Positions 18,656 through 55,793 of a DNA stretch of 64,000 nucleotides are shown piece by piece; the first letter of the stretch is position 1; each line of letters starts with the position of its first letter. Origin of the DNA: Papiliotrema nemorosa (Eukaryota; Basidiomycota; Tremellomycetes; Tremellales; Rhynchogastremaceae); NCBI GenBank assembly GCA_032158125.1, contig JASKOT010000027.1, positions 181,351 through 245,350 of the forward strand, in the 5' to 3' direction. The notes beneath the pieces were generated by a model. It was given only the letters and a program-made list of their open reading frames with translations. It was not told the origin of the DNA and did no database searches. The translations under genes were made by a program, and so were the position numbers.

Positions 18656-21302
18656 ATGCCTAGCTCTAATAGAGTCCCGGCGAAGCATGCCGAGGAGTAC
18701 TTTAAGCTAGGTCTGAAAGAGTACGAAGCGAAGAAGTACGATGCGGCAGTCTCAGCTTTCGACAGGGTGAGTCTGACCGACATCTCTATAGTCAACACGT
18801 CATTGTGCGACTCGCAGGTCTTCTATAAGAGTCAAACAGGAGGATATGCTGATGGTAGGCTATCACGCTGGGAGACAAGAGTTTCGTGACTTGGGATCTC
18901 AAAGTTGCCTCCATGAGCAAAGCCGATGGGCCAAATCAAGAAAGAGCCTATTCGGCCGTCAAGGGTTTGCTAGTCCGATTCGCCAAAGATCCAAAGGTCT
19001 GGAAGGTGAGTGCTGTTGACAAGCACCCCTCGATGATTCTCCGTCCGAGGCTTCTCTCCCCTCTGTGCTCGCACTGATCAAGGAGGTTCATTATCGTAAA
19101 GCAGACATTTTACGTCGGATGGGCCTATACAACAAGGCAATTCTAGCTCTCGACGTGGCCAAGGACTTTCTCGCTCGTCTTCCTGCATCCGCTCAGCAAG
19201 ATGCTCTGACACGAATCACAGCGTTCCAATCGTCTCTCCGGGTCGAAGCGTCCAAAGCCAACGAGCGAGGTCGAAAGGAAGGCAAAATCCATCAAGCCGA
19301 ATTGGACCGTCGAGCTCGATACAAAACCCTAGTGAAGACTAATCACTTTGCGAAAGCTTTCTCGCCCGATATTCTCATGTGTATCTGCGAATATGGAATG
19401 GAGGTGAATCCGAACTTTGGAGTGGTCATGCGTGGAGTTTGCAGGGAATGGAGGGACGCTTTGGGGATGTTCCCGGCGGTTTTCGGACGATTATTTCTGA
19501 CTGGCAAGAGACCCGCGGCGATACCACCACATCTACGTACTCGCCCAGGAGAGAAAGCAGAGGAGAAGGAGCAGATGTGGAAGAGGCTCAGCGGGGGTAA
19601 GATTAGGTCGCTCAGGATCAGCGCGAGGGACAACGGAGAATTGGACCGAATCGCCCAGAACATGGTCGACTGCGTCAATTCGCTCAAAAGGTTGGAAATT
19701 GTTGACAAGGCTGAGACCGTCCTGACCAGCTGGGCAGGACGACTGCAACAACTCGAGGAATTGAAGTTGCAGGACTCGGCGGGAACGAATTGGCAGCCTG
19801 ACTCGTCTGTCGACTTCTCATTTGGTCTGATGCAGCCGAACAGCACTTCACTACGGTGTGTCGAGATCAAGGGTTTGAACATGCTGCTCGACCAACGTAT
19901 AATACACCCTTCGCCTACAGCCCACCCGGATCATCGAGAGCGGGAGGACGATCCCGACATCGACAACTCCTTCCCTACCAAACACGTTCAGAGACTGAGC
20001 ATCGATTCAACCCGTATGCAATGCAACACGACATCACCCCTTGATTGTCTATTTCAGCCCATACCAGACTTAGAGGAGCTGGTCATCCATCGAAGTGCCT
20101 TCTATCTCCTTCGAGCGACGGGCGAGGACGCTGAAAAGGCGGACGAGCGACGACAGCTTGTTCGACTGAATCACCTCGTACGATACATTCAAAGCGGGCC
20201 AGTCGATTCCATATCCATTCATGTAGGCATCCTTTCCGACGAACCCATCTTTGTGCTGGATCATTTGATTTATACGCCAAATCTCACCGACCTATCGTTG
20301 TATCAAATCAGATTCCCTATTCTAGAGGGATTGGCTACCGGTGGTTTCGAACTTGGCCGACTGGAATCATTGGACATCGGCAAAAACATTGTCGACGACC
20401 ATGACGAGTTCATCGACCTCGCTCGACAGATGGCGTCTCTGAAGTTCCTCAACGTCTCGCATACCTCGTTAGGTGATAAATTTCTCCAAGCGATTCAACA
20501 TCGAGATGGCCTGGACGAGTCGGATCAGGTTTTGCCGAATTTGGTGGCGATCAGTCTGGCGCATACCGACGTCTCTACTTTGGTCGTCCGTGATTTTGTC
20601 AACTCTCGGCTTCCTCCTCACAGACGAATGAAGACGGCTCGACGAGTCGAACCAGTGAAACCAAAGATCGGCGGCGCTTTCCGGCCCTCACAAAAGCCAA
20701 AACCCTCCTCGACTTCGACCCCATCCAAAATCTCTTCTGGCGAATCGGCAAGTCGGGGCGACTCCCTCCTGACCGATCTCGACGAGACAGTCTTCTCTAC
20801 ACAACCCTCTAAACTCTCACCTGATAGAAGTATCCGTTGGATATGCCTAGACGGATGCGAGACCATCGCTCCAGATTTGATTCCTCTTCTCAAGAAACAC
20901 GTAAAATACGTCTCGTGGTGGCTTGGCACACCGGTAGAAGATCGACATCGAGGAATGGGTAGATGGGATTGGAGAGACGATTATGCTTCTTGCGCGGATA
21001 CAAATGCACCTTGCTACATGCGACCGATTGGCAATAGTGAGTCATCCAACCACTTCATTTATGTCAGGCCTGGCGGCGCAAAAAGTGGATATGATAGCTG
21101 ATGTGTAGACAAATGGACGGTTCAACACACTTGTCAATACAAGGATGATCCCTATGCGGGTTACGATGACGACGGACAGAGCGAGCTCAAAGGCAACGGA
21201 AAGGAGAACGAGCAAGAGAAGGGTTGGTGGAGGAGCGCTCAGAGAGTGAACGAAGGAAACGACACTCAGACCGCGAACAAAAGTTCGGGTCGGGCACGTT
21301 GA
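18656..21302 (+). CDS. DIA2: TPR, F-box and leucine-rich repeat protein of the Dia2/Pof3 type
   Basis: Dia2 and Pof3 are substrate receptors of SCF ubiquitin ligases acting at replication forks and in genome stability. The order of parts fits: N-terminal TPR units (AEEYFKLGLKEYEAKKYDAA and EVHYRKADILRRMGLYNKAI), then an F-box-like stretch (KAFSPDILMCICEYGMEVNP, VMRGVCREWRDAL). A long array of leucine-rich repeats follows (SLRCVEIKGLNML, NLTDLSLYQIRF, RLESLDIGKNIV, SLKFLNVSHTSLG). A Ser/Pro-rich insert and a C-terminal Trp-rich tail (YVSWWLGTPVEDRHRGMGRW) complete it. Introns lie after FDR (near 18769-18857), after KVWK (near 19005-19080) and after PIGN (near 21040-21108). The last exon ends at TGA 21300-21302. 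Dia2 is the best assignment; another LRR F-box protein is possible. Confidence 0.82.
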
Positions 21303-31761: not shown

Positions 31762-34700
31762 TCACCTCGCATCGTCCTCGTCATCTCCCAGCGCAAAGGC
31801 ATTCTTCCCGTTGGACTCTTCTTCATCCCTAAATCTCTCTCTAGCTTTCCCCTTACCCTTCCCACCCCGCTTATACTTTCTTCCATCATCATCCAGCTCG
31901 TACTCCCTCGCTCGATCTATCTCGTCCAGTTCGACGCGTTCCGTTCCCAGCGGGACCCTCTCTGCTTCGTCGTCTCGCGTGATGGGAAGTCCAACTTTTC
32001 GACGTAACCTCGAGTTACGCTTGAAGTAGAGGTAAGCGACAACGATACCGACCAAGAAGAGCAGGATGACAAATGCGGATCCGGCATTATACCAAGCTGG
32101 AAAAAATCAACTCGCGCCTCTACGGGTGGGTAAAGTTCCACTTACTCTCCAGATCTGAACCCCCGCCTTTTAGTAGAGGCATGCCCCCTGCCGCGGCGCC
32201 GATGGAGAGAGCGACCTTCTGCGAGCTTCCTATCCTTCCACTCGTTTTGCCGAGATCGCCAGGCACGAGCGACAAGTCGACACCCATGAATCGGGTGATC
32301 ATATCGTTTGTGACTTGAGGTACGTCGAATCCCACCATATGGGACGATTTTAACACCTACTCATCAGCGCTTTGGACCGATAGTCAACCCGATACACACC
32401 TTGACATAGGTCATGCCTCGACTCTCAGTCCATGTGCCGACTTGGGTACCGTTGAAGTACCATTCTGCAGCTGTGGCATTCTGTGGACTGTCAGATGATT
32501 ACTTGTGAGGTGTGTCGATCACAACTCACCCCAAGACCTTGTATACCCGACCACCTCATGTTGTCCAACATATTTTCTATCCCCTTGTAGTTGCATATCA
32601 GATCCTCCGCTCCCGCAAACATCATCACTTTGACTCCGGCATCCAAAATCGACGGAATGTATTGTACCGATGCGCCTGAAGTCCTAAGGTACAGCTGAGA
32701 TGATACCTGACCATCGCATTCTGTCCATGCTGATGATCGCTTCTCGGCATGTAATTGGCGCACAACATCGTCCCGCTAAGGAATCAGCAAGAAACCTTCA
32801 CAATCTGTCACCAGAACGCACGCGTAAAAAGTCGTAGACATCAGGCAGGTCTGGTGGCCAGTTCATCCCGCATGCCGGCCACTCATCCATCAAACGGACG
32901 TCGTAGACGTTCATGCACATTTTCTTTCCGTTCAGTCTAGTGATCAGCATGCACTTTACGAGCAGCTCAGATGATGCTCACTCTTGAGTAAAAGGCTCGG
33001 TCACGGCACCCATCAAACTCTCACATCCGCCTCCCAGGTTGATCGGTATACTTTCAACTCCCCGAAACTTGTCCAGTTCACCCATGCACTGTTCCAACAA
33101 TTCGTCGGCATGGTTTGCAGCCTGACAGTCAGCTGATGATGCCTTCCAAGAGGTTGACAAGTCAGAACTTACCGGTGTTCCCTTCGTAAGGAGCCCCTTT
33201 TCGTACGCAAAGTCGATGTATCCAGGATATTGCGACATTGGATCTATCCACCCATTTCCAATAGCGATACCAGTCAGAGTGAGTATTCCTGATGGCGGAG
33301 ACTGAAGCAGTGCATTGGCTGGGCACGTCAGTATGGCTCACCATCGCGGGTGCGACGTACCAAAATACGGGATGTATTGCCCAGCAAACGATTCACCAGC
33401 AAGGTATGTCTAAACATGAGTTGAAGGGACGGGCAGGATCACGGTCAAACCCACGTCGAGACCCAATAGTTCCGGAAAGACGGAGTAAAAGTTTCTCATA
33501 AACTGAATGAGATGCTGTGATGCCTAGAACATTAGCAACAATGCACAATAGATGTACTGCTCCGACACTTACCTGATCCAATTCGTGCAGATACCCGTTT
33601 GTCGGTACAAACGATAGACCCGTCCCAGGCGGTTGATCCACTAGCTCTATCAGTCTCATCCGGAGTAGAGGACCCACCAAAGACAACGTTGGCATACTCT
33701 TCCCATCCGCCTTCGACCAGCTTGAGCTCTACCTTGCCCGACTCGGTCTGCGAGGCTGGTACCGTCCTGAAAGGTCCGACTTCCATTAAAGATCCGTCAA
33801 AAGACGAGCATCCAGGTCCACCCTGCCTGTCAGCCAGCATCCCTTGAAGAATCGTCCCGCTTACATTGAACCAGAAGATTACACGTTGTTTTCCGGCGGC
33901 CCTCCTTGCTTTCGCCAACATGAAGCTATATGATTAGCTTCAGCCCCTGACTTTCAGACTCACAAAATTTCTGCATCTTTACCAGTATCTCCATCTCCAC
34001 CTCCTCTGTCCTCACCAGGATAACTCGGCAATAATCCAGCGTAGAGATTCAGCGGGTGTCTATCGATCAGTTGGCTTGGCGAGAGAGGAGCAGTGATCTT
34101 ACGTCGGATGAGTCGTCATGTCCTCCACACCGGGAAGACTCCGTACCCAGAAGTCGGAGGCTTTAGGTAGATCTAGCATCAGTCTCCGCTTCATTGAGGA
34201 CTGGGCTTTCAATGCCTGAACGCACTCTCATTTGCCTGACGACTGATATGCCTTCGATGGGAAGATTCGGCTTCCGAAGGCGAGGCGTCATTCCGGGCAC
34301 CTCGTATCCGGATGTCAGACTGCATGGTGGGTATCAAACCGCGTGCAGGCGGGCACAGGTAGCGTGGGTTAGAACAGAGCGAGGTATCAGTGTTGTCAAG
34401 TCGACACCATCAGGCAGGACCGACATAAGGTTGGTGGACGCGTCGAGGTGGAGGGGTCTGACAGCGGTCTTGGCCGATTCAGGTAAAACCCAGCATCGAC
34501 TTTGACAATCCAATGCCCATTCCACTCGCTCAACGCAGTGGAAAAAACGAGGCACAGGTCTGACAGGTGGGAGAGACAACATGCATGGCAGCTAAAGACA
34601 TCTATGTGCATTTGAATAATCTGTATCGAGACGTTTTGGCACCCTCCTCCCCCGACCGTATCAGTTGAAAGGAGGGTTTCCTATATAGTTTCGAGACGTT

Positions 34701-34779
34701 AATCCGTTCGTCTAGTGAACCCTCTGGACGCAGTAACAGTCACTGAACAGACTAACAGTGTGGCAGTGAGGAGAACCAT
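31762..34779 (-). CDS. KEX1: Kex1 serine carboxypeptidase (late Golgi pheromone/propeptide processing)
   Basis: Kex1 trims basic residues after Kex2 cleavage, in the late Golgi. Core motifs read [26 protein letters not shown] then [46 protein letters not shown] (nucleophile Ser), [24 protein letters not shown] text, [19 protein letters not shown] (Asp) and [12 protein letters not shown] (His). After the catalytic domain comes one membrane segment ([20 protein letters not shown]) and an acidic/basic cytosolic tail ending GDDEDDAR, as in Kex1. The 5' end is uncertain. A good signal peptide ([18 protein letters not shown]) starts at 34779, and a second exon ([20 protein letters not shown], then [10 protein letters not shown]) precedes [10 protein letters not shown]. 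However, the intron joining them would be about 400 nt with no strong donor. About twelve exons. Confidence 0.88.
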
Positions 34780-35011
34780 TTTGATCAAAGAGATATAAGA
34801 CGATGGAGAACAACAAAATAGAGCGCGGCAGCGAGGGGAGGGGAGGGGGAGCTCGAGGATTTGGACGGAATCAAATTTCCTGGCAGAGGGGTGTTTGGCA
34901 TGACGTGGCACCGGGATTGTCGGGGTTGACCGGATTGATAACGCCCCTTCGAGATTTCTGAAAGTTGAACCGGTGTAGTGTTGATGACGACTTGACCGGG
35001 ACATACCTATA
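34780..35011. promoter_or_regulatory. Divergent promoter between KEX1 and the BMT6-like gene
   Basis: A 230-nt gap between two start codons on opposite strands. It has a purine-rich GGGGAGGGGAGGGGGAG stretch near 34834-34850. Shared regulation is possible but not shown. Confidence 0.5.
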
Positions 35012-36226
35012 ATGACACACCGATCAAGGACAGGCGGACCAGTCAAGAAGCGTGGAGGACAGAAACAAAAATCAAACAGAAAACTGCATCACCCTCCACC
35101 TCCTCCACAGGCCGCAGACCCAGCTGCAAACCCCTCCCCTCCCAGTTCAGCGTACTTGGAATCACCGAGCGACGGAGAGATCCTCGAGATTGTGCATCAT
35201 GCTTTACGATCTACCATCGACTCGCCAGGATTCCCAGCTGCCGTGCAGAAGGTCAAGGGATTGTTGTATGACAAGAAATGGTTAGAAGTGTTCACCGATC
35301 ACGGATTGCTGGAGAGTTACGCTGGGAGATGGGTGCCAAGCAGGGCATGCTGTTATAGGGAGCTGTTCGCGACGCTTGGATCGATTAGGAGAATGTTCTT
35401 CGTGGAGCACGACATGGCGGGACCTGATGATTCGGACGAAGAGGAGAGTGAGCAAGAGGAAGATCAAGAGGATCAAGCTGGATCATCCACCGTCAATGCC
35501 TCATCTTCGGCAGACAGCGAGACTTCGCTTCAGACCAGTATCTTGTCTCTCGGAGGGGGCGCCTCATCTGAGCTGCTCGCTGTCGCATCTCTCGCCCGAG
35601 CATGCCAGCTACTCGAGCCGAATGTCACATCCACGGATAGAAAAGGCAAATCACCCGTCAAGTGGCACTGGACCGGTGTAGATATCGGCAAATGGGATCA
35701 TATCGTCAACAAGCTTCAGTCATCTCTGGAAAGCGAATGGGACCTTTCAAGGAACGTCTTGAACCCGAAATTCGTTCAAGGTGACCTGCTTTCGGCACAA
35801 CCGTCCCACTCTGAAGAGGGAGAACCGATCCCGAATCTGGACGTAGCGCGACTACTCACTGACACCTCGCCAGATTTGATCACAATCCTCTTCACCCTTA
35901 CCGAACTCCTCACTCAATCTCGCCCATCCACTTTCTCCCTCTTGCGCGCTCTCACACGACAGACAAAGGCGGGAACACTATTACTCGTAGCGGATAGCGC
36001 GTCCGATATATCAGAATTTGAGATGGGCTCTTCGGGTCGGAAATGGCCAATATACATGATCCTAGATACGATACTCCTCGGACCGCCCAGCTCGCCTGGG
36101 ACAGAGTGGGAATGTGTGAGAAAGGAGGATAGCAGGTGGTACAGGTTGCCTCCAGGAGTAGGCAGTGGTTGGCCGGTGAAGTTGGAGAACACTAGGTATT
36201 GGCTTAGGCTGTACCGACGCCTGTAG
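35012..36226 (+). CDS. BMT6: Putative SAM-dependent 25S rRNA methyltransferase, Bmt6-like
   Basis: A single-exon, 404-residue protein. A basic N-terminus (KKRGGQKQKSNRKLHH) suits nucleolar targeting. Then come EILEIVHHALRSTIDSPGFP, YDKKWLEVFTDHGLLESYAG and RWVPSRACCYRELFATLG, which I associate with the Methyltransf_34 family that includes yeast Bmt6. Bmt6 makes the N3-methyluridine at position 2843 of 25S rRNA. An acidic Ser-rich linker is followed by ILSLGGGASSELLAVASLAR, a SAM-binding glycine motif, then WTGVDIGKWDHIVNKL (acidic end of strand 2) and PDLITILFTLTELLTQSRP. It could instead be a Bmt5/6 relative with a different target base. Confidence 0.75.
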   Translation: MTHRSRTGGPVKKRGGQKQKSNRKLHHPPPPPQAADPAANPSPPSSAYLESPSDGEILEIVHHALRSTIDSPGFPAAVQKVKGLLYDKKWLEVFTDHGLLESYAGRWVPSRACCYRELFATLGSIRRMFFVEHDMAGPDDSDEEESEQEEDQEDQAGSSTVNASSSADSETSLQTSILSLGGGASSELLAVASLARACQLLEPNVTSTDRKGKSPVKWHWTGVDIGKWDHIVNKLQSSLESEWDLSRNVLNPKFVQGDLLSAQPSHSEEGEPIPNLDVARLLTDTSPDLITILFTLTELLTQSRPSTFSLLRALTRQTKAGTLLLVADSASDISEFEMGSSGRKWPIYMILDTILLGPPSSPGTEWECVRKEDSRWYRLPPGVGSGWPVKLENTRYWLRLYRRL

Positions 36227-36508
36227 GCTCTATACATCTTCATAGACCCCATCGAAGCCGAATCTAGAAGACGCGAAGAGGAAGCGACAAGGCCTCCAGT
36301 GCTAGGTTTCAGATTTGATCGGCCGACCGGTTCTGAATCAGAATCATGGTGATTTGGTTTTTCAAATCTCCCGTATGAAAGGCTTAAGATGCCTCAGAGT
36401 CTGGCTACGTATATGCTTCGATACTGTGCACTCTTCTCGCGAGAGGTAGCACTCTTCCTGTCATTAGCTTTCTATACGAAGACTTAGATCAGTCACTACG
36501 GTGAAGAT

Positions 36509-37381
36509 ATGGAGTCCAGCTTACGAAACAAAGAGTATGACTTGCTTCATCGAGCTTCACTTCTGCTGTGCGGATCTCACGGTCGGTCAGATAGTGTAGC
36601 GCAAATGAACAACGGGCCTGCGCAGCTCGAATGGCAGGACGCTCCGATTGAAGAGTGGCGGTCCGACAGTATGAAATCAACTTACGAGCAAATCCAGCCT
36701 GTATGGACGGCGAATGGCTCGTCGTTGCCTCACACGAAAAGTACAGCCGAGATCCTCCTCAAGTTGTGCGATGATGGGGACAGCTCATCCAGCGTCATGT
36801 CAGACGACGGAGTCAGTGTGCCAACCGTTGAGACATGGGTACCACTGCACCCCTCAGGCAATGTCATGTTCGGCACTGATGTCATATACAAGCAAAGAAT
36901 CTTGCACAAACAAGACTTGCACAAACAAGACTTGCACAATCAAGAGGCCGGTCCGAGTGGCGAAACTCAGCACGACGAAGATGAGGCTGCACTCGTGCGT
37001 TGGCTAAGCGAGCAAGACGTATCATGGGAAAAATTGTCGATGCAGGCCATACTGCAATGTCGACCAAGTCTCGAGAGACTAAGTGAGGATACTGAAATGG
37101 GGGACGAGGATATCGACTCGCAGAATCTCATTGGATTCCACAATCCCACGGCTTTGAAGCAGGCTCTGGCGAACACTGCCATATCACGCAGACGACGTTC
37201 ATGGTCAACGGATCTGAAAAATGCTACGACGACTTTGAAGGTCACCGAGATGTATTCGCTTGGGCCACAGGTGATGCAATGCGGACTGTGGGATATACCC
37301 TCGGGCCAAGGCACTGAGCATCAGACTGTGATCATGGATGTGACAGCGGTACAGCAGATGTCGCTGACGGGAGGAATTTAA
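36509..37381 (+). CDS. Tandem orphan family member P1
   Basis: First of five tandem intronless paralogues with no domain I recognise. At 290 residues it is the most divergent along with P5. It keeps the common order: N-terminal helix (LLHRASLLLCGS), QPVWTANGSSLP in place of the VFG motif, and FGTDVIYKQRILHKQDL (the G-T/M-D/E-x-x-x-K motif). VRWLSEQDVSWEKLSMQAIL, NLIGFHNPTALKQALANTAI and a C-terminal SLGPQVMQCGLWDIPSG follow. A 15-base unit is repeated three times in frame at 36902-36946, giving LHKQD LHKQD LHNQE. No signal peptide or membrane segment; probably intracellular. The function is unknown. Confidence 0.75.
   Translation: MESSLRNKEYDLLHRASLLLCGSHGRSDSVAQMNNGPAQLEWQDAPIEEWRSDSMKSTYEQIQPVWTANGSSLPHTKSTAEILLKLCDDGDSSSSVMSDDGVSVPTVETWVPLHPSGNVMFGTDVIYKQRILHKQDLHKQDLHNQEAGPSGETQHDEDEAALVRWLSEQDVSWEKLSMQAILQCRPSLERLSEDTEMGDEDIDSQNLIGFHNPTALKQALANTAISRRRRSWSTDLKNATTTLKVTEMYSLGPQVMQCGLWDIPSGQGTEHQTVIMDVTAVQQMSLTGGI
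36902..36946 (+). repeat. Three in-frame copies of a 15-base unit inside P1
   Basis: Two identical copies of TTGCACAAACAAGAC are followed by a variant TTGCACAATCAAGAG. The repeat expands the family's K-x-x-x-I/L-x-x-x-D-L motif region, so it is likely a recent slippage or duplication in this copy only. Confidence 0.9.
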
Positions 37382-37823
37382 GAGACCGAAGCTTGGTGAG
37401 TGCTGCATCTCCACAGGCATTCACTGTAGTTGTACTCCGCGCATCAGCGAGGCGATAATCTCCCTGTGAATGGTTGTCGGTCGGCCATTTGATAACGAAC
37501 GGCTTATCGATGATTCATTATTCTAGACGTAGAGTGCTACTATGTACAAGAGCCATGTACAGATGATTCCATGTTTGACATGTTGACGGTCAAGGGACAG
37601 CCAGAATGAAAAGATGAGAATCCCTCCTTTCTTTCAGTCAAATTCCTCCACGCCCCAAATGCATGAGAAGCGTAATCTGCTGCAGTAATAAAGAGCCATC
37701 CATCCTCCTCTTCTTCGTTTTCATCGTCGCTTTCATTACATGCCTGCAAATTTGCACAAGCGGTCTTGCCAAGGACTCAATAGCGATATCTCATCAAGTA
37801 CGAGTACTGTACAAGTTGGAAAT
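37382..37823. other. Spacer between P1 and P2
   Basis: About 440 nt. The P2 frame stays open upstream to 37740 but the extra residues do not match other family members. An antisense frame (37540-37749) shows nothing. Read as P1 3' region and P2 promoter. Confidence 0.4.
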
Positions 37824-38761
37824 ATGTCTCTCGAAGAATTTCGCCTCTCTGCTGAACAAGAGACGGCTGCCAGGGTGGCCCTCAGCTCCGCCGCCATGCG
37901 ACTTGTTGATGCAAAGCTGGTGACGTCAGACTGGCAGGACAAGATGAGCAATCGTCACGGCCACATTCGTCCCCCGTCCATACCCGATGTCAGTTGGAAG
38001 TTCCACTACCCAAGCGACGGCGGAACCGAGTACGGTGCGAAATTGAGAACGGTCTTTGGGACGCGCGCACCAATAATGACCGATGAGAATACATGGCTTC
38101 CCCACGAATTGACTTCGGATGAAGTCTCAAAGGTCTTACAGGATTCGAGTGACACGGACGTGAAGAATGGCAGCTATACGCTGGGCATGGATGTCCTGTA
38201 CAAACGCAGCACTATCGAGCGATGCGACCTGGAAGAGGAGCTGCAAGAATTCTTGGACAGTTGATTGGCAATCTCTCTGCAGAGTGGAATTGGAATACTG
38301 CCGACATTGACGCATACTTTCACGTCCTCGCCTCCCACAGAGCGAGTAAGAAATCTAGTAACGGGCACGTGCTCGCGTTTGCCAATCTTCCCAAACTTGC
38401 TGAGGCATTGTCCAAGGTTCACGAGGGGCAATTACACGCTTGGACGTCTCGTGATGAGCATGGCGACATCAATAGGCTTGAATTGGAAGAAGTATGGGAC
38501 CTCGGCGAGCACCCGGTAGTTCTTGGATTGTGGTCTGAACCTGAGCAACCTGACGATGCTTGCGAGATTTCTCGAATCAAAGTTTCGATTGGATTTTCCA
38601 TCCATGTCAATGAAGCTTCCGAATTGGAGACATCTCTGGAAGAGCTCGGGAAGCTCCAGCTAGGTGCTAAGAGATCAGGCAGTCATCTTGACGACGACCA
38701 GAAGTTCGCTGCTCAAAGGACAAAGAAATGGGTATCCGACGTCAGCACCCAACAGACGTAG
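37824..38761 (+). pseudogene. Tandem orphan family member P2, frameshifted
   Basis: The first half reads from ATG 37824: TAARVALSSAAMRLVDAKLV, LRTVFGTRAPIMTDENTWLP, NGSYTLGMDVLYKRSTIERC and DLEEELQEFLDS, ending at a TGA at 38262-38264. The second half of the family pattern continues at once in another frame: LIGNLSAEWNWNTADIDAYF, GHVLAFANLPKLAEALSKVH and LELEEVWDLGEHPVVLGLWS, to a stop at 38759-38761. The frame change lies between about 38225 and 38262 and equals loss of one base (or gain of two). An intron is unlikely, because every splice pair that restores the frame is too short or removes the conserved K-x-x-x-I-x-R block. It may be a recent pseudogene or an assembly error; both halves otherwise look intact. 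Confidence 0.7.
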
Positions 38762-39255
38762 ACTCGGGGCCAATAGAGAGGTCTTGTTCGAATTTGTCGA
38801 TGCATGGTATGAGGAGTGTAGAATACGCATGGGTGGACAGCTGCATCCCAATGCATCCAACGTCAAATGCTGGTGGACAGGACGGTGGGTGTCTCCAGCT
38901 CGATTGGACACTACGGGTCGCCTTGTCTGCTTTGGATTTTGTCAGAAGGTCGTAACGCGTATATGTATGACTGGAATGGTGACTATCCGTCAAGGGGTCG
39001 CTCATCAAAAGTGAGACCCTGGAAAAGCTTCGCGATCGATCATCCTTTGTCGACCTGATGTTTCCGTATCAGAAGGCACCCTCCTACAGTGCGTCGACTT
39101 GGAAAGCATGAGAACCTCTCTGTCCTTCCTGCTTTTTCACACCTTATATACTCGGGATCTCTCTTGAGCCTGCCCCTAGTCCGGTTGGGCGAGCTGATCA
39201 GTCCATCGTGAGCCCAATATACCTACAGCCAGTCTTTCCGATATCCCGCTGAGCA
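38762..39255. other. Spacer between P2 and P3
   Basis: About 490 nt. A plus-strand frame crossing the P2 end (to 39014) is Trp/Cys-rich but does not match the family. No gene called. Confidence 0.35.
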
Positions 39256-40080
39256 ATGTCCTTGTTTCGAGAGAAACATTCTGACCAGGACTTGGCGAAC
39301 GCGCAATCCGCTCTGCATTGTGCCGCTCTGCTACTGCAGAATGACAAATGGCTCTTCGAATCACCAGCCAATGATGTGCACGACCGTGAGTGGCAGGGAT
39401 CCTTGTCAAGTCATGACGGTGGACGAGGGGACTCTGCGCTACGCACCGTCTTTGGCAAGACAGCACCACGTATGACCTCTAAGAACACCTTTCTCCCCTC
39501 CAACCAAAAGTCGCACCGATATTTGATCAACTTTTCCGACGCTGGGGAGCCGCTGGAGGATATTGGGAGTGGAAATTATACGCTTGGCACCGAGCTTCGA
39601 TACAAGACTCGGGTCATAGGCCGATCTGACAACCTGTCAAGTGAGGATGGGATGGTACGCCTTTGGATGGCGACCCTACCTTCCAATTGGAGATCCATCG
39701 ATCTCGGTGCATCCATCTCCTCCCTTGCTACCGGTGGAGATATCGCAGGATCCCAACAAGGTCACATTCTCGGATTTGTAGAACTTGCGCGGCTCGCCGA
39801 ATTCCTTTCGCGGGCTACCACGCACTCCATGACGATCAGCGAGACCATTACGGATGGCGGTGCCATCTCTGAAACGCATGTTCGATGGGTCTGGCCATTA
39901 CACTTGCATCGGATCGCTCATGGATCGTGGGCAGATTACCCAAACATTGAGGGCGACACCATGTTCTGTGACCTTGAAGCCTCAATCGACCTAAAGGTGT
40001 CGTCCGACGTGCAAGCGGGATTGCAACCATCAGATGCCGATGATGTTCAACTGGAAGAAGAGCCGCAGCGCGCTTGGTGA
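39256..40080 (+). CDS. Tandem orphan family member P3
   Basis: A 274-residue, intronless member with the clearest set of family motifs. They are AQSALHCAALLLQNDKWLFE (N-terminal helix), LRTVFGKTAPRMTSKNTFLP, GNYTLGTELRYKTRVIGRSD, LWMATLPSNWRSIDLGASIS, GHILGFVELARLAEFLSRAT, GAISETHVRWVWPLHLHRIA and CDLEASIDLKVSSDV. It lacks a signal peptide and membrane segments. The start ATG at 39256 gives MSLFREKHSDQDLANA, similar in length to P2. Function unknown; no catalytic motif is evident. Confidence 0.8.
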   Translation: MSLFREKHSDQDLANAQSALHCAALLLQNDKWLFESPANDVHDREWQGSLSSHDGGRGDSALRTVFGKTAPRMTSKNTFLPSNQKSHRYLINFSDAGEPLEDIGSGNYTLGTELRYKTRVIGRSDNLSSEDGMVRLWMATLPSNWRSIDLGASISSLATGGDIAGSQQGHILGFVELARLAEFLSRATTHSMTISETITDGGAISETHVRWVWPLHLHRIAHGSWADYPNIEGDTMFCDLEASIDLKVSSDVQAGLQPSDADDVQLEEEPQRAW

Positions 40081-40588
40081 GCCGCCGACTCGACATGATC
40101 TTGGCGTTTTGAATACAGACAGAGTGGTTTGAATCTCACTTTCGGCTACATGGTATATGACGATCCAAGATGGGTGGACAGGTTTGATACATATCAGGGA
40201 GGATGCGGGATCAGAATGCATGACTGATGGAGACAATGATACGCTGGCTATTTCAGGAATCAGGGGGACCCGAGATCTGCTTTCTAGCTCTTCGCTTCAG
40301 CTCCGAGCGGCCAAGTTGTTCAGTAGTTCTGCTCATGGACGAGCCGTTGATACGCTCGCACGTGTCCGCGTGATCTACCGATCTACCATGTCGGACAGGC
40401 ATCGTGTAGCAGCTCAACTGAGAAACCTTGTCAGCGCCATTTCGCCTTTTGACCCGCCGCCATGTAAGGCCGCTCATAGTCACACATAGCTCCATGCATG
40501 CACGCTCATGTGGGTCTATCTATACCACTCATCTATCAAATCATCACGTTTCCCCCCATCTTGCCCATACTTCAATTACAGCAACGCG
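40081..40588. other. Spacer between P3 and the glycoprotein gene
   Basis: About 510 nt with one plus-strand open frame (40157-40489). It includes RVRVIYRSTMSDRHRVAAQL, faintly like the K-x-x-x-I-x-R motif of the family, but the rest does not align. It might be a decayed copy; I do not call it. Confidence 0.35.
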
Positions 40589-41247
40589 ATGACTTCATCA
40601 GTGCCCGTCTGGTTCGAATGCACCGGTGTACCCTTTGAACAATACAGTGGACCGACTGAACTCCAACATGTAATGCCGTCGATTGCCCAGAGATATCGCT
40701 GAATGTAGCTCTCGACGACGGTCAACTCTACGATCCAGGTCAATTTCACCGTGCCCGTAGGTGCGGTAGCGCCTTATAATGTGTCTCTAGTGTGAGCGAA
40801 TCCAAGCAACCTGGACTGCGGCTAAATGACGATGCAGCTACCAGGATGCCATTGGCAACGGCTATGTGAGTGCAGTACTCGTAGTGAACAACGAATCTGA
40901 TGCCTACCTAGTGTACCAGTCCCATAAACAGAACCGGTCTTGCTGCCGACAACATCACGACACTCAGCACTCCCTCGGTCAACTTCACCGTGCTGGAGTT
41001 TGATTACCCGACCGGCGGTCCAGCAAATACCACCAATTCTAGCCAAACGCTGGGTTTGCCTGGACAATCTTTGTGCGTTCACGTCCTACACGAGAGCAAA
41101 ACGAATGGCTGACTCTCTCGCAGTATGCTCCAGCTGAGCGGGCACAGGATGTATGGCGGCGAGGACTTTTGGACAACAAGCGCCAACTACACCATCAAAG
41201 ACGCTCAGGCTTCCGCGGGGGCTGGTCAACGAGTCTCCAAGTCGTGA
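40589..41247 (+). CDS. Spliced Ser/Thr/Asn-rich hypothetical protein with many N-glycosylation sequons
   Basis: I do not recognise the family. Joining exons at good GT-AG pairs gives MTSSVPVWFECTGVPFEQYS, then LSTTVNSTIQVNFTVPVGAV, APYNVSLVYQDAIGNGYCTS, PINRTGLAADNITTLSTPSV and NFTVLEFDYPTGGPANTTNS. SQTLGLPGQSFMLQLSGHRM and YGGEDFWTTSANYTIKDAQA follow, to a TGA at 41245-41247. Introns are roughly 40679-40717, 40793-40841, 40870-40914 and 41071-41122. About eight N-x-S/T sites, beta-strand-like alternation and a Gly-Tyr-Cys turn suggest a secreted or cell-wall protein. No signal peptide is visible at this start, so an upstream exon may be missing or the gene may be decayed. Unlike its five neighbours it has introns. 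Confidence 0.55.
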
Positions 41248-41790
41248 GATACATCGGGAAGGGGACAAGACGAAGGCTGACGGATCAGTCTCCAATCTGT
41301 GGGACTCTTGATAGTGTTATGGACACTCGCGATACAGATCTTGATGTAAGAGGGTCCCTTCAGGATACCATGTGCAAAGGAAATGCTTGTACTATGCTCT
41401 TTAAAAGCAGAATGAGAAGTGTGATAGTAGTCCGACAAGCTCGCGATGCTGCCCGTGAGCGTGTTGTCCGGCGAAATTCGGTCGAAACTTCGAACCGAGC
41501 CCGAACCTCACTTGCAACTCGAACACGTTTCAAAAGTGAGTCTGTCAATGTAAGGAGTACGAGAAGCTGGAGAAGGACTCTACCTTTCATGGTAGCATGC
41601 TTCAAACGAAAGCGACACCTCTGGTCGAGTATCTCGAGCTGCTCAAGAAAGAATGAGAGACAGAAAGAAAGGAAGAAAGATCTCAGCCTTGTCCTTCCTG
41701 CGTCTTGGCTTACTCATACAATCGACTCGCGAAGCTCAACGAGTCGTCTCACCGCTTGATATCTTGCTTTCCTACATACTACAATTCAAG
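41248..41790. other. Spacer before P4
   Basis: About 540 nt. The open frames on both strands are Arg/Ser-rich and look like chance. The P4 frame is open upstream to 41653 with a basic leader that other members lack. There is an AGAAAGAAAGGAAGAAAG purine repeat near 41660-41680, just before P4. Confidence 0.4.
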
Positions 41791-42696
41791 ATGGCAATGT
41801 TCAGCAGTCAAATGTCCGATGAGAAGAAGGCCGAGTGGGCGACCGCTTTGGAACAAGCAGCCGAGCTAATCAAGCACGATCGATACCTCTACATAAGAGA
41901 ACAAGCCACAAACGGTTCACCTCTCAGCGTGGATGATCTCCGATGGCGAGCCCAATCGGGCTATCAATACTCGAGGCCAAACACCGTCTTGAAAAGGGTC
42001 TTTGGGTCTCGTCTCCCGGTGATGCGGTCCACAAACACATTTCTTCCTCAAAACCCTGAGACCGTAGACATCATAGCGTTGATTGACCTTACAGATGAGT
42101 TGGAACTCAAGTATGGGGATTATGAAATTGGGATGGAACTCAGACACAAAGAAAGAACTATCGAGAAACGGACCGACCTCTCCGGAGATTCCGAAGCCTC
42201 ACGAGCTTGGTTGCAGACCCTACCGTCAGAATGGAGCAAGGTTCGTGTCCGAGCGAGTATCGACTTTCGACCTGGCAGCGAAAAGATCGATGAATTGACG
42301 TACTGTCAAATTTTGGCCTTTCAAGACCCCAAGGTGGTGGCCGAGGCCTTTTCTGAAAGTTCTAGTCATTCTCGGCACTTTACCCAGAGTAGTGACGAAG
42401 AGGGAAATATCAGTGAAGCCCTCATCAAGTGGGTGTGGCCTTTGGGCTCACACAAGATCGTCTATGGCGATATCTTTCAACCTGAGGAACCTGAAGGAAC
42501 GGGCAAAAGCTCGGATCTTGAGGCTTCCATCAGCATGCAGGTCACATTTAGCGGGACCGCTACTGCGGCGTCCACGTCGATGTCGGACATGAGAGCTACC
42601 CAGACTGACACTGATGCTGATTTGACTAAGCGCTCTGGCGAAGAAGGTGGTAACAACTCCGGCCCCCTGCCCAAGAGACCCAGGACGGAGATGTGA
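41791..42696 (+). CDS. Tandem orphan family member P4
   Basis: A 302-residue intronless member from ATG 41791 (MAMFSSQMSDEKKAEWATAL). Motifs are ALEQAAELIKHDRYLYIREQ, LKRVFGSRLPVMRSTNTFLP, YGDYEIGMELRHKERTIEKR, WLQTLPSEWSKVRVRASIDF, CQILAFQDPKVVAEAFSESS, ISEALIKWVWPLGSHKIVYG and SSDLEASISMQVTFSGTA. The C-terminal tail is acidic and ends in a basic PLPKRPRTEM that could be a nuclear localisation signal. An in-frame ATG at 41653 would add a 46-residue basic leader not seen in relatives. Function unknown. Confidence 0.8.
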   Translation: MAMFSSQMSDEKKAEWATALEQAAELIKHDRYLYIREQATNGSPLSVDDLRWRAQSGYQYSRPNTVLKRVFGSRLPVMRSTNTFLPQNPETVDIIALIDLTDELELKYGDYEIGMELRHKERTIEKRTDLSGDSEASRAWLQTLPSEWSKVRVRASIDFRPGSEKIDELTYCQILAFQDPKVVAEAFSESSSHSRHFTQSSDEEGNISEALIKWVWPLGSHKIVYGDIFQPEEPEGTGKSSDLEASISMQVTFSGTATAASTSMSDMRATQTDTDADLTKRSGEEGGNNSGPLPKRPRTEM

Positions 42697-43215
42697 CAGT
42701 TTCTATGGGACCATATGGTGTATGATGTAACAAGCATGCGCAGGAGAGGTCGAGTTGTTTGCCTGATGCATATGGTGATATGGTGATATGGTGATATGGT
42801 GACATGGTGATATGGTGATATGGTGATATGGCGGGGGCGCATTCCTAAATCCCGTCTAGACTCGTTGCGTTCCTCGTGCGACTCACGCACGCATGTGTGC
42901 AGCACAAACCACTTGGCTCACCTGGACCTCTTGATGAGCTTCTCTAGGAGTGTGCTAACCCCAGCCAAGCTCATGCTACACGTGAGAGACCCCCAGAACA
43001 CTGCAAGCTTTCCTTTCATCACTCAAACTCAGCGCTCAAAGTCTGAGTCGATCGCTGAAGCTTCTGCCAGTCTTGCGTATCTATCAGAACTCTTGTCCCC
43101 CTTGCGTCCACCGGTCTTGATCACCTTACATCGCTCGTACGCCCATACGCCCCTCATTTGCTGATACCGCCCGCGCCACACCCTCCTCAACCTATCTTAA
43201 CGCTGCACTCAGGCT
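42697..43215. other. Spacer between P4 and P5, with minisatellite
   Basis: About 520 nt. It holds the 8-base tandem repeat at 42771-42831. Downstream is a pyrimidine-rich region leading to the P5 start. No gene called. Confidence 0.45.
42771..42831. repeat. 8-base minisatellite (TATGGTGA)n
   Basis: About 7.6 direct copies of TATGGTGA, with one T-to-C change in the fifth copy (CATGGTGA). It begins 75 nt after the P4 stop codon. The near-identity of the copies suggests recent expansion. Confidence 0.95.
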
Positions 43216-44160
43216 ATGTCGAGCGCTTCTTTCGTCCAATCTCCATTCCCGCTCACACCAGAACTCGTCATCGCAATCTCAGGCGACAAGACCATCAAAG
43301 CGACATGCGAGCTGCTTGCCACTGCTCCCTTGGCTTCACATGCCAACGAGAGCCTCGACGAAGACCCCATGGAGGATCCCGAATGGCCAAACTCAATCAC
43401 ACCGCTGCGTTTCGCCAATCCTTACTTGGAGATGGTGTTTGCTGAATCACCCCCTGCGCTGGTGAGCTCCACAGCAAGGTTGTCGTGCTCTGCGCATACC
43501 GCCCAGATCATCGAGAAGGCTCTGGGAGCGGGGGAGGTGTATCTGAACCCCAACGGAGAGGTGGGAATGGGGACTGATATTCTCCACAAGACACTCACGG
43601 TCGATGCTTCAGCTAATTGGCTCCCCCCATCAATCAAGGATTGGATATCTTCCATACCTCAAGCTCGATCTCTCTCGCAGATCGAGGCGAAGGCCTTGAT
43701 CCGTGTACATCCTACAGACGACAATTCATCTGAACAGATCATCGATTATGGCGATCTGGCTCATCTTGGACAGAGCCTCGCTGCTGTTCCTCCTAGGGAG
43801 TCCTGGAAGTTGACCATGAGCGACGATACAAAGAACCGTGAGTTCATCGTTGAATACGAGTGCGATTGGGATCTCGGAAATCAATCTTTCATCCTGAGAT
43901 GCTGGGACGACTCCGTGGCATCACAACAGGGTATGCAAACGGACGTATCAGGGGGTGAATCAGATTATCAAAGCGAGATTGAAACTCCCTCGGTGGAAGA
44001 CAATCGTCCGAGACGTGATCTCTTGACGAGCCTGGTCATTTCTGGATCTATCACTTTCAAGTATACCGACGAGGAAGTCAACAATCAGCGATACGCCGTG
44101 GGCTTTGTGCCAACCTCTTCGGGGGCCGCTGCTGCAGCTGTCACAGCCTCCTCGGTCTAG
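43216..44160 (+). CDS. Tandem orphan family member P5
   Basis: A 314-residue intronless member and the most diverged together with P1. Matching segments are TIKATCELLATAPLASHANE, LEMVFAESPPALVSSTARLS, NGEVGMGTDILHKTLTVDAS, IKDWISSIPQARSLSQIEAK, EQIIDYGDLAHLGQSLAAVP and EYECDWDLGNQSFILRCWDD. The motif RRDLLTSLVISGSITFKYTD corresponds to the DLEASI strand of P3 and P4. The C-terminus is Ala-rich. The start at 43216 follows a short pyrimidine-rich leader. No signal peptide; function unknown. Confidence 0.75.
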   Translation: MSSASFVQSPFPLTPELVIAISGDKTIKATCELLATAPLASHANESLDEDPMEDPEWPNSITPLRFANPYLEMVFAESPPALVSSTARLSCSAHTAQIIEKALGAGEVYLNPNGEVGMGTDILHKTLTVDASANWLPPSIKDWISSIPQARSLSQIEAKALIRVHPTDDNSSEQIIDYGDLAHLGQSLAAVPPRESWKLTMSDDTKNREFIVEYECDWDLGNQSFILRCWDDSVASQQGMQTDVSGGESDYQSEIETPSVEDNRPRRDLLTSLVISGSITFKYTDEEVNNQRYAVGFVPTSSGAAAAAVTASSV

Positions 44161-44373
44161 GGTGTGTAGGGTAGTGATCGAAAGGTGCCTGAGTACCGCC
44201 AGAGTTGTGCCATCAGTGAGATGCATCATTTGGGCGAGGCTGCATTAATGCAGTCGTAAGTCGTGATCAGCTTTGTTCAGACATCAAGACCGGTGTTGTA
44301 TTAGCTCGTTCGTCATGTCGTTCACGTGTATTCATCGTCGGCTTAACTGTGGAATGGACTATCCCCACCGCGT

Positions 44374-45335
44374 CTAAGCTGTGATTTTGGTCCGCCCAAG
44401 CTCTCCACCAGGCGGGCTTACAGCTGTGCTAGTTGGCGAAGGGGTCAAGTTATCCTCCGTCTCTCTCTTTGTAATCTCCTCGAACAACTGACCGTCAGTG
44501 CGGGTACCCACCAGGAAAAAATCTGCACTCACATGGACAAACTCTTCAACTCCCATGGCTCCACTCGCGGCGTACTTTCCCTCAAAGACGAAGAACGGCA
44601 CACCGGTGATTCCCATTCGCTTGGCGATTCCATACCCTGCTTCCACCTCTTTCTCGCATTCGTCACCGTCCAGCCATTCTGTCGCCTCTTCGGTAGTTTC
44701 GAACACTCCATGCTTGACAGCGAGAGAAGCGAGGGACGGTTTGTCCGCAGGGTGCACTCCGTGGATATGGTAGAGCTCGAAAATGTCCATGGCGAGTGAT
44801 AGTTGTTTCTCCGGGTACTGGAGCAGAGCATAGGTTTGAAGTCTATGAGCGAGGTGTGATGAAGATGTGTTTCCGCCGAGCTCCCTGAACGTCAGTAGAG
44901 TTCCCTTCTCCTCCGGCCGAGCAATGTGCAAGTGAGGGAGCGCGACTCACGTCTTGTAGCCTAATGCTGCAAATCGAGCAATCATACCCTCCTTGAGACT
45001 CTCCGCTCTCTGAGCCCCAAACTTCTTTGCATACATCTCGGCTCTCGTGATCGGTGTCTCACTCATCCCCGGGTTAAGCTGATACGGCAGTAATCTGATA
45101 TCCACATCGAGAGGCGAGGAGGTATGATCGGCATTGTATTGGTCAATGGCCAGTAAGAGTTGTTTGGTGCCTATGAGACAGAATGGGCAGAGGACGTCAG
45201 ACTGTCCAGTCAGCGCATTCCTCATACGGCCGATTGAGAACAGTGTGAATGATAGGTGGAGGGAATCGTTGGACTCACCGTGATGTCCACTTTGAACTTT
45301 CGAGCGATAGCTCCTCCAGCAGCTTTAACAGACAT
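44374..45335 (-). CDS. DsbA-family (FrnE-like) thioredoxin-fold oxidoreductase
   Basis: FrnE-like proteins are cytosolic dithiol-disulphide oxidoreductases or isomerases. The spliced product starts MSVKAAGGAIARKFKVDIT, then SDVLCPFCLIGTKQLLLAID with the CxxC site CPFC. RLLPYQLNPGMSETPITRAE, MYAKKFGAQRAESLKEGMIA, NTSSSHLAHRLQTYALLQYP, SLAMDIFELYHIHGVHPADK and GITGVPFFVFEGKYAASGAM (with the cis-Pro GVPFF) follow. The tail is Ser/Pro-rich. Four exons; ATG at 45335-45333 and stop TAG at 44376-44374. The first intron follows VDIT directly. No signal peptide, so a cytosolic place is likely. Confidence 0.9.
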
Positions 45336-46121
45336 GGTTCGACTATCACGAAACAGGTGGAAAAATAGTGCGATCAGCAGTCGATCCTATTTGTATCCCG
45401 TCGAGGGGGAAGGGTCCTATGATCTGGATAGGCTCTGTATCCGGCCCAGAGGCTGATTCGACGAAGGAATGAGGGGGGTTCAACTAGTCAACGCCCTTGT
45501 TCTGGTTCCAAAAGTGGGCAGGGGCCGAGTAGCAGCGCCTGTTGTGAGGTCACGGCGGCAATGGTGAAGCCGAAGGGGAACGTCCACAGGGGGAATCGGG
45601 CTATCGGTGTTGTCAAAGGGGATGCCCGTGAAGATCGAATGAGGTACTGGGTCAAAGGGGTTGAGAGGTCCTGACTACTCGTAATGCGTGTTGATAGGTA
45701 CAGCGTGATTCAGTGAAGATATCGGGTGCTCAAGAAACGAGGCGACATTGGGGTGTTGGGGATATATACCCAGACCGAAGGCCTCAACCAGCAAGGTCAT
45801 GATGAATAATCACGAGACTCTGTCGGAGCTTGTCACCATCCTCCGCGGCCATGCAAGGCTGTTCGGTTCCCATGCATGCGCAAGCAGTACTTAGTGGTCA
45901 TCTGTGGATGGCCCCAGAATACGCCGGGAGGGCAATGCACTCGAGTATTGTCTTTTTTTTTTTAGTAATAGAGCTGACGAGGGGAGCGGGCAGTCATCGA
46001 TGACCCGGCCAGAAGGTTGACCGCGGCACCCGTGGTTGAGTTTGTTGAATTTGATTGAGTTGCTCCGTCGGAAGAGAATACATTTTCCGCCTTTTCCGGA
46101 GCGATAGTGCCAACAACAGCA
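45336..46121. other. Intergenic region between two minus-strand genes
   Basis: About 790 nt. It contains an 11-base T run at 45953-45963. An open minus-strand frame at 45962-46156 (DAVVGTIAPEKAENVFSSDG) could be a further C-terminal exon of the DUF2985 gene. The rest is upstream sequence of the FrnE-like gene with no recognised feature. Confidence 0.4.
45953..45963. repeat. T11 homopolymer
   Basis: Eleven T residues in a row, close to the possible distal 3' end of the DUF2985 gene. It could be a poly-A-tract artefact of a retrotransposed sequence or a simple slippage run; no other retrotransposition mark is visible. Confidence 0.8.
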
Positions 46122-53828: not shown

Positions 53829-55793
53829 CTACCAGTCGATACCGGCCGCATCGACGATATCCTGGACACCCTGAGGCCAAGGAAGTCGGGTATCGTTGAA
53901 AAAGATGTTACCGGTAAAGTTGCTTCCATTTGGTTTCTTTTCTTCCAGAGTGTTGTTTTGTGAGGCATAATTGTCGATAAAGAGATTATCACCCGTCAAG
54001 GTGGACCCATTGTTTTGAGTATTCTCAGTGTACCACAGAGTCCCACTGAACACGTTATCCCTAACGGTGTACAACCTGGACCCTTCATCGAGGTACATGG
54101 CGTTGACATGGGGACTGTTGATGATTGCGTTTTTCTCGATGATCGTCCCTGGACTGGCGGAAAGGCAGTATATCCCCCCTTCATCGGTATGGTTCTGACC
54201 GACCATGGAGATCAAGTTTGATCCGATATAATTGTCGTGTAGCGTCGTAGGCGTTTCGTATAGCGGTTGAAAGGCGTACAAGTTTCGAGCGATATAAGAA
54301 GGGTTGGCACCTACATCGTTTGAACCCCAACCCCATCCTTGACTCAGACCGGAGTAAGCCGAATTTTCGACGGTATTGTGCGAGATGGACGAGTATTGTA
54401 CATAGGTCAAGAGGATATTGGTGGCAGAAGTAAAGAGTTTGTTATTGTCGTGCAACCAATTGTTGGAGATGGATATACCGGAATTGATCATTTCGCTTCG
54501 GTAGGGATGATGAGCGTCGGCTCGGACACCTCCTACTTGAATCACATTCCCACCACTCTGTGAGAGTGTCATTCCCTGCACGCTGATATTTTTGGCCCCC
54601 AACCCAATTTCCAGCAGATGGGCATTGGCGTCGTTTCCTATACCCAGACTCGCCGCACCGGTACAGGTGATCCCCCCACCATTGAAGACGATTCGTTCTG
54701 CCACACTGACTTGAACCGCCCCTGGTGTTTGGTACCAGAATGGACGACTCGCTTCAAACGTTGAATAGTTGAACGGTCCACCGAGATAGGCTCCCGTTTG
54801 TTGATCTGCAAAACCGTATTTCGAAGTAGGATAATTCCAACCGGTATGTGCCCAGGTAATATTTTCAAACTGGATATCATGTGCCGGTTCATCGTAGCTC
54901 AGTCCAGTGAGGGCGAGCAGGACGTCCAGTTTGGGGATGATAATCTCCGACGTATTGGGGTCTGTACCATTGATGGGTTGATAGTACAGCGTACTGTTAC
55001 CTGCATCAAGGAACCATTCGCCGTCTTGATCCAAAAAGGAAAGGGAGTTTTCGAGGTACAAACCCTGTGTGCCGAGGTAGAGTCCGAGAATCCCAGGTTT
55101 GGATACCACGTCGTAGCCGATCAAGTTCCGATACCAGGCTGGTTGTTTCATGATCAGGCTTTGCCCATCTTCCGCTAGGTGATCCACCGGCGTGTACCGG
55201 TCGGTAAAAGTCCCGACGAAGCGAAGCTCGACGTTGCCGAGACCAGAGATGGAGGAGAGGTCGATGAAACTCGCATTGGTCGCGTACGAGTCGAGCGTAT
55301 AGGTAGATTGGTTCTGAGCAATGCTAGGTGTTCGAGCACGAGTAGCATGAACCCCATCAACGTAGAGCGATCGAGTCTCCGTGTTGATAGGGACCGAGGC
55401 AGACCACATTTCCGTCCCATCGACCTTGGTCCAGTTGTCTATTTTCATTCCACCAGACAAAACGACATCACCGTTGGCTTTCCATACCGTTGGACAATCC
55501 GGAACTCCCGAATGTGCACCAGTGAGGAACAGATACGTGTCCATGTAATATGTCCCTTGGGCAATGTTGACAGTGACTTGCGGGTAAGACGAGCTATCGT
55601 TCCAATTTTGGACGTACAGTGCAACTTGATCCGCTGCATCCTGTACATTGGAGTAGGCGAGCTGAGCCGAAGAGCCATTGCTCTGTAGGCCGATGGTATT
55701 GTTTGCCGAGCCATCGACAAAGATTTGGATCGGGCTACAATTCCAAGCGCGAACGACATCGAACAAGGCGGCAGCGACCACAAGAGAGATCAT
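53829..55793 (-). CDS. Secreted right-handed parallel beta-helix protein (putative glycoside hydrolase)
   Basis: A single-exon, 654-residue protein with a signal peptide (MISLVVAAALFDVVRAWNC). The N-terminal part reads IFVDGSANNTIG, ILNIAQGTYYMDTYLFL-like text, CPTVWKANGDVVLSGGMKID and TRSLYVDGVHATRARTP. This pattern (substrate-like SGG, then 'x-LYVDG-x-x-A-x-RAR') is seen in bacterial beta-helix enzymes; GH141 is the family I am reminded of. The core is a repeated beta-helix (ISISNNWLHDNNKLF, SISHNTVENSAYSGLSQGWG, IARNLYAFQPL, DNYIGSNLISMVGQNHTDEG, VRDNVFSGTLWY). Many N-x-S/T sites fit secretion. Intronless in an intron-rich region. Substrate unknown; plant or microbial polysaccharide is likely. 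Confidence 0.85.
   Translation of the reverse strand: MISLVVAAALFDVVRAWNCSPIQIFVDGSANNTIGLQSNGSSAQLAYSNVQDAADQVALYVQNWNDSSSYPQVTVNIAQGTYYMDTYLFLTGAHSGVPDCPTVWKANGDVVLSGGMKIDNWTKVDGTEMWSASVPINTETRSLYVDGVHATRARTPSIAQNQSTYTLDSYATNASFIDLSSISGLGNVELRFVGTFTDRYTPVDHLAEDGQSLIMKQPAWYRNLIGYDVVSKPGILGLYLGTQGLYLENSLSFLDQDGEWFLDAGNSTLYYQPINGTDPNTSEIIIPKLDVLLALTGLSYDEPAHDIQFENITWAHTGWNYPTSKYGFADQQTGAYLGGPFNYSTFEASRPFWYQTPGAVQVSVAERIVFNGGGITCTGAASLGIGNDANAHLLEIGLGAKNISVQGMTLSQSGGNVIQVGGVRADAHHPYRSEMINSGISISNNWLHDNNKLFTSATNILLTYVQYSSISHNTVENSAYSGLSQGWGWGSNDVGANPSYIARNLYAFQPLYETPTTLHDNYIGSNLISMVGQNHTDEGGIYCLSASPGTIIEKNAIINSPHVNAMYLDEGSRLYTVRDNVFSGTLWYTENTQNNGSTLTGDNLFIDNYASQNNTLEEKKPNGSNFTGNIFFNDTRLPWPQGVQDIVDAAGIDW

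Follow-up and report, generated by a model that had tools for sequence, protein, structure and literature searches.

What are the five similar, intronless genes that lie in a row on the plus strand of one contig of the tremellomycete Papiliotrema nemorosa, and how did they come to be there? They span positions 36509–44160 of a 64,000-nucleotide stretch, referred to here as the window, which comprises positions 181351–245350 of contig 27 (JASKOT010000027.1) and forms the right end of this 245-kb contig in an assembly of 19.2 Mb and 68 contigs (GCA_032158125.1). The array is placed between a BMT6-like gene and a gene of the DSBA family. An original prediction, made from the sequence alone, had taken its members to be one divergent family arisen by tandem duplication, and the comparisons described below bear this out. 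The members, named P1 to P5, are delimited as follows:

36509–37381, plus strand: P1, distant member, intronless open reading frame (ORF) of 290 residues; E 3.7e-8 with the P2–P4 profile
37740–38264, plus strand: N-terminal part of P2 (P2N), first frame, 174 residues from the first ATG; phmmer E 5.3e-11 to P3
38222–38761, plus strand: C-terminal part of P2 (P2C), other frame, with family homology from about 38258; phmmer E 1.9e-10 to P4
39256–40080, plus strand: P3, core member, intronless ORF of 274 residues; 36% identity to P4 over 259 residues
41791–42696, plus strand: P4, core member, intronless ORF of 301 residues with a basic C-terminus (347 residues if begun at an earlier ATG, 41653); phmmer E 1.7e-36 to P3
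43216–44160, plus strand: P5, distant member, intronless ORF of 314 residues; E 1.6e-6 with the P2–P4 profile

When individual members were compared by phmmer with the 517 reading frames of the window, P2, P3 and P4 were linked to one another at expectation values (E) of 1.5e-8 to 8.8e-37. P1 and P5 were linked to P3 or P4 only at E 0.0009 to 0.034, and with P1 as the query an unrelated minus-strand frame (E 0.025) ranked above P3 (0.034). A family profile, built from P3, P4 and both pieces of P2 and compared with the same frames, recovered P1 at E 3.7e-8 and P5 at E 1.6e-6, none of the remaining 511 frames scoring better than 0.43. Addition of P5 to the profile improved P1 to 1.5e-10, and P5 stayed at 1.2e-6 when P1 was added. 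Pairwise z scores, computed against 200 shuffles, were 59.7 for P3/P4, 17.2–19.9 for each P2 piece with P3 or P4, and 6.6–8.3 for P1 or P5 with P3, P4 or one another, in keeping with the prediction that P3 and P4 are closest and that P1 and P5 are far diverged. Scores were weaker for P1 with the P2 pieces (5.6 and 4.0) and for P2C/P5 (4.0), and the pair P2N/P5 was not significant (z 2.0, a score reached by 11 of the 200 shuffles). Local identity was 36% for P3/P4, 30–37% for the P2 pieces with P3 or P4, and 22–28% for pairs involving P1 or P5. The deepest splits of the family involve these two edge copies, as would be expected if unequal exchange acts mainly inside the array. Judged by these comparisons of sequence, membership is settled by the P2–P4 profile and the five members are one real family; being on the same strand, near-adjacent and of common ancestry beyond chance, they are classed as an array of tandem paralogues.

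Shared patterns were also sought, although, having been fitted to the five members, they are informative only by their absence from other frames. The pattern G[NDSE]xxxG[TM][DE][LVI]x[YH]K and a stretch of the type ILxF..L..L.E.LS were each found in five of the 517 frames, all belonging to the family, and [WY]xL[GH] in eight, five of them family members. The list of motifs said to be common to all five stood in part: the ILxF..L..L.E.LS-type stretch is present throughout, but VFGxxxPxMxxxNTFLP and DLEASI are exact in P3 and P4 only. At the nucleotide level, the copies resemble one another only in short matches attributable to chance; the duplications are therefore old or fast.

The interpretation that we favor, tentatively, is that of an old tandem family from an intronless founder, encoding soluble, acidic and probably intracellular binding proteins and subject to birth and death. 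A single intronless gene between the BMT6-like and DsbA-like genes would have undergone old tandem duplications to give a strongly diverged, perhaps lineage-restricted family, and the array may still be gaining and losing members, with P2 broken or breaking unless the assembly is in error. P1, P3, P4 and P5 are open over the predicted 274–314 residues, but P2 is split over two overlapping frames. Its N-terminal part has a family-like start at 37824, and the family motifs continue from the frame at 37740–38264 into that at 38222–38761. An intron as the cause of this frame change was rejected, as P2 is without an intron-like motif; the split may represent a recent break by frame shift or a fault of the assembly, programmed shifting being less likely. 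P1, for its part, carries three copies of a 15-base tandem repeat (36901–36945) which adds repeated residues in frame.

Additional copies were sought and candidates rejected. On contig 41, a match to P1 (E 0.074) had two internal stops, and a repeated search of the locus (best E 1.2 with the P2–P4 profile, 0.19 with P1) led to its being taken as chance. Between P3 and P4, the frame at 41138 (E 0.031 in a set of 1012 fragments) was considered as a possible relic, but it does not share the reading frame of the gene presumed there and had no nucleotide support; it, too, was taken as chance. No further member was found by profile in the 100 kb to the left of the window (contig positions 81351–181350, frames of at least 40 residues; best E 1.2), this search stopping short of the first 81 kb of contig 27 and of the other 67 contigs.

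Could the array consist mostly of decaying relics without present function? The distribution of P2 over two frames would fit such a fate, but four frames of 274–314 codons are intact. Moreover, when neutral drift of P3 was simulated in 100 runs (substitutions only, no indels), drift to 36% identity gave a mean of 8.8 stops and no stop-free run; stop-free runs numbered one at 60% identity and six at 80%. With four frames open at 36%-level divergence, coding was therefore maintained for most of their history, and decay as the general state of the array is very improbable.

The description of the members as intronless was also sustained. Their coding frames are open, and no intron-like motif was found in the 4571 bases of the family versus 4.6 expected at the density of the window, which contains 129 such motifs compared to 81.2 in shuffles. 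The motif is only mildly informative on introns because nine other open frames of the window likewise have none, and introns in untranslated regions are not visible from sequence. The accompanying statement that nearly all neighbors are full of introns was overstated: at least three further long ORFs of the window are uninterrupted, namely those of the BMT6-like gene, a GH141-like gene (53829–55793, 654 residues) and 19119–21101 (660 residues, no Pfam match). The claim of housekeeping flanks agrees with the Pfam matches of both neighbors. The other genes at the locus are these:

35012–36226, plus strand: BMT6-like 25S rRNA methyltransferase on the left flank, one single open coding frame of 404 residues adjoining the array; Pfam Methyltransf_34 E 1.5e-73, 116 relatives
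40589–41247, plus strand: small, apparently unrelated intron-containing gene inside the array, of uncertain exon structure and limits; from frame reading and GT-AG motifs
44374–45335, minus strand: DsbA/FrnE-like gene of several exons on the right flank, limits approximate; Pfam DSBA E 2.6e-9 for the last frame of 138 residues

The remaining exons of the DsbA/FrnE-like gene were assigned by manual three-frame reading. The small gene was also recognized manually, from reading frames split by GT-AG motifs between 40589 and about 41247, and as it sits between P3 and P4, the array is not strictly consecutive, contrary to what had been claimed. A Pfam scan of its conceptual protein gave no match; several N-glycosylation-like sites were noted in it by eye.

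Five intronless genes are unusual by the yardstick of Cryptococcus neoformans var. grubii, yet they go back to one founder and so are counted once. In the relevant section of the C. neoformans var. grubii study, 99.5% of expressed genes were reported to contain an intron and only 35 expressed genes to be intronless, with 10 of their proteins unique to C. neoformans species (PMC3990503). These genes resemble the array in being intronless, in some cases without relatives, and housed in an intron-rich tremellomycete genome, but section 9 of that paper counts 35 such genes and makes no mention of a tandem family, which the array is (PMC3990503). A founder that was retroposed, or acquired horizontally or from a virus, and later duplicated would explain why all coding frames are without introns, and the intronless, species-unique genes on record in C. 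neoformans var. grubii are consistent with it (PMC3990503). Against it, the base composition of the family is near that of its neighbors (GC content at third codon positions, GC3, 0.50–0.64 vs. 0.47–0.57 in nine other frames), and uninterrupted coding is seen as well in the BMT6-like gene and two further long frames. No confirmed relative was found with P3 in viral contigs or with P4 in bacterial and archaeal genomes, one member being tried in each, and an origin from either source was rejected; among phage families (PHROG, E up to 1), nothing was convincing, the only match being phrog_28087 for P2N at E 0.19. Single-sequence queries of the own genome detected neither an intron-bearing parent nor further copies, but such queries are too weak to find distant members: P5 found itself only, missing even P3 and P4. 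Such a founder appears unlikely on this evidence, retroposition being possible, as an intronless gene can arise in this way among others.

The prediction that the family has no recognizable domain was corroborated. Searches of Pfam-A (E up to 10) and NCBIfam (E up to 1) returned no family at the curated cut-off, the sole Pfam match being YfaZ for P2C (11.3 bits vs. a cut-off of 23), and the best PDB sequence matches (E 0.16 for the profile, 0.071 for P3 and 1.6 for P5) were taken as chance. In a collection of 5.8 billion proteins, only P4 and P1 were recovered with the family profile, from 5152 candidates, and P3 as the query returned only itself out of 1005. The BMT6-like protein returned 117 including itself, the closest of the other 116 being 73% identical, and the collection therefore holds many tremellomycete proteins. 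No such family was described in the titles or abstract openings of the papers listed in a literature search. The family thus appears to be undescribed; its kind, the divergent tandem family, is known. It resembles tandem lineage-specific families of other fungi in its near-adjacent divergent paralogs, its broken copy and the failure to find close outside relatives. Typical effector arrays carry secretion signals, whereas no signal-like N-terminus was seen in the array proteins by hydropathy alone. The tandem arrangement, the strong divergence, the broken copy and the close relatives not found would also suit a fast-evolving conflict or recognition family, directed at self/non-self, a virus, a mobile element or a host and diversified by positive selection. 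Age plus relaxed constraint yields the same pattern, however, and neither a signal-like N-terminus nor a recognition domain was seen; we regard a conflict role as doubtful, and the niche adaptation suggested in the original prediction is likewise conjectural.

Under the favored interpretation, an old tandem family from an intronless founder, the products would be soluble and probably cytosolic or nuclear. All are acidic (isoelectric points of 4.4–5.6), and their highest mean hydropathy over 19 residues, 1.15, is below the level of membrane segments. KRSG and further basic residues occur near the C-termini of P4 (42628–42696) and P2 (38671–38761), and on manual reading these somewhat resemble a nuclear localization signal; none was seen in P1, P3 or P5. 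Structural models of P4 and P3 have strands and helices in the same order, with a helical N-terminal part followed by a predicted alpha/beta domain of approximately 140 residues (strand-helix-strand-strand-helix-strand-strand-strand); in P5, an acidic insertion precedes the last predicted strand (manual reading). The C-terminal domain of the models gave no significant structural match, and one to a single-stranded RNA phage maturation protein (E 9.2e-4) was rejected for its template modeling score of 0.12 and probability of 0.14. The models are compatible with the common fold proposed for the family and place it in no known one. A weak likeness of the C-terminal domain to the Mog1/PsbP/EagR-type fold recurred in both models, at scores below significance. 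Mog1, PsbP and DUF1795 (EagR, DcrB) form one fold group, and it might be asked if the array is a diverged branch of it that serves as a small chaperone or adaptor. That likeness is what speaks for this descent; against it, no Mog1, PsbP or DUF1795 Pfam model was matched by sequence in an hmmscan search run with its filters on and with E up to 10, and the array proteins, unlike the group, have an added N-terminal helical part. Such a placement is improbable on present evidence. In the favored tandem family, the C-terminal domain would most likely be a non-catalytic binding or adaptor domain; binding is preferred to catalysis because no conserved polar active site was evident in the alignment (by eye) and because of the weak fold likeness. 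With the core of this domain kept and its loops and tails diverging, the paralogs may bind different partners or ligands.

Several observations weigh against this interpretation. The models are weak (mean predicted local distance difference test scores of 59 and 62, predicted template modeling scores of 0.47 and 0.64), and since both derive from the same proteins, one does not independently confirm the other; nor would an enzyme be ruled out by five sequences of such great divergence. The GC3 of P2N, 0.64, is above the range of the neighbors. The 5.8-billion-protein collection contains P4, 36% identical to P3 and yet missed by the P3 query, as well as P3, missed by the profile; relatives as distant as the paralogs would therefore be missed as well. 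Only four 5-residue words are common to P3 and P4, and most pairs within the family have none in common, compared with 6 to 171 shared between the BMT6-like query and its 116 relatives. Thus, the profile search gave no placement in a known family, as predicted, but the designation orphan is weakened: it means here that close relatives are excluded in that search, and the family may or may not be restricted to one lineage.

If it is truly confined to one lineage and under selection, the array would bring together, at one locus, copies at several depths of divergence and one that is broken, a compact natural series in which the origin and persistence of orphan families could be studied; it would also bear on any tendency of orphans in intron-rich fungi to be intronless. 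The Mog1/PsbP/EagR-type fold group is best known from bacteria and plastids, and were the fold likeness true, the group would be extended to a strongly diverged fungal family. More speculatively, and with still less likelihood than the alternatives of descent and role doubted above, the array could be a new fungal family, with its own fold or as a eukaryotic Mog1/PsbP/EagR-type offshoot, whose diversification within one tremellomycete lineage served recognition or interference inside the cell, its paralogs differing in specificity.

Some minor features of the locus were also recorded. A subtelomeric location was considered, given that the right end of the window is the contig end, and set aside, as inspection by eye of its final 600 bases revealed no telomere-like repeat. 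An Rfam scan of 34000–46000 gave no match at the gathering score. Shortly 3' of P4, at 42770–42831, lie 7.8 copies of the 8-base tandem repeat ATATGGTG. An open frame at 7934–8701 (plus strand, 255 residues) had no Pfam match at E 0.1 and no significant likeness to the array. The named relatives of the BMT6-like protein are from Kwoniella, Cryptococcus, Dioszegia, Naematelia, Vanrija and Cutaneotrichosporon and, lower down, from Microbotryomycetes and an ascomycete. The single-frame protein encoded on the minus strand at 53829–55793 matches the GH141 insertion domain at 33 bits (cut-off 27) and, with a hydrophobic N-terminus noted by eye, is probably a secreted glycoside hydrolase.
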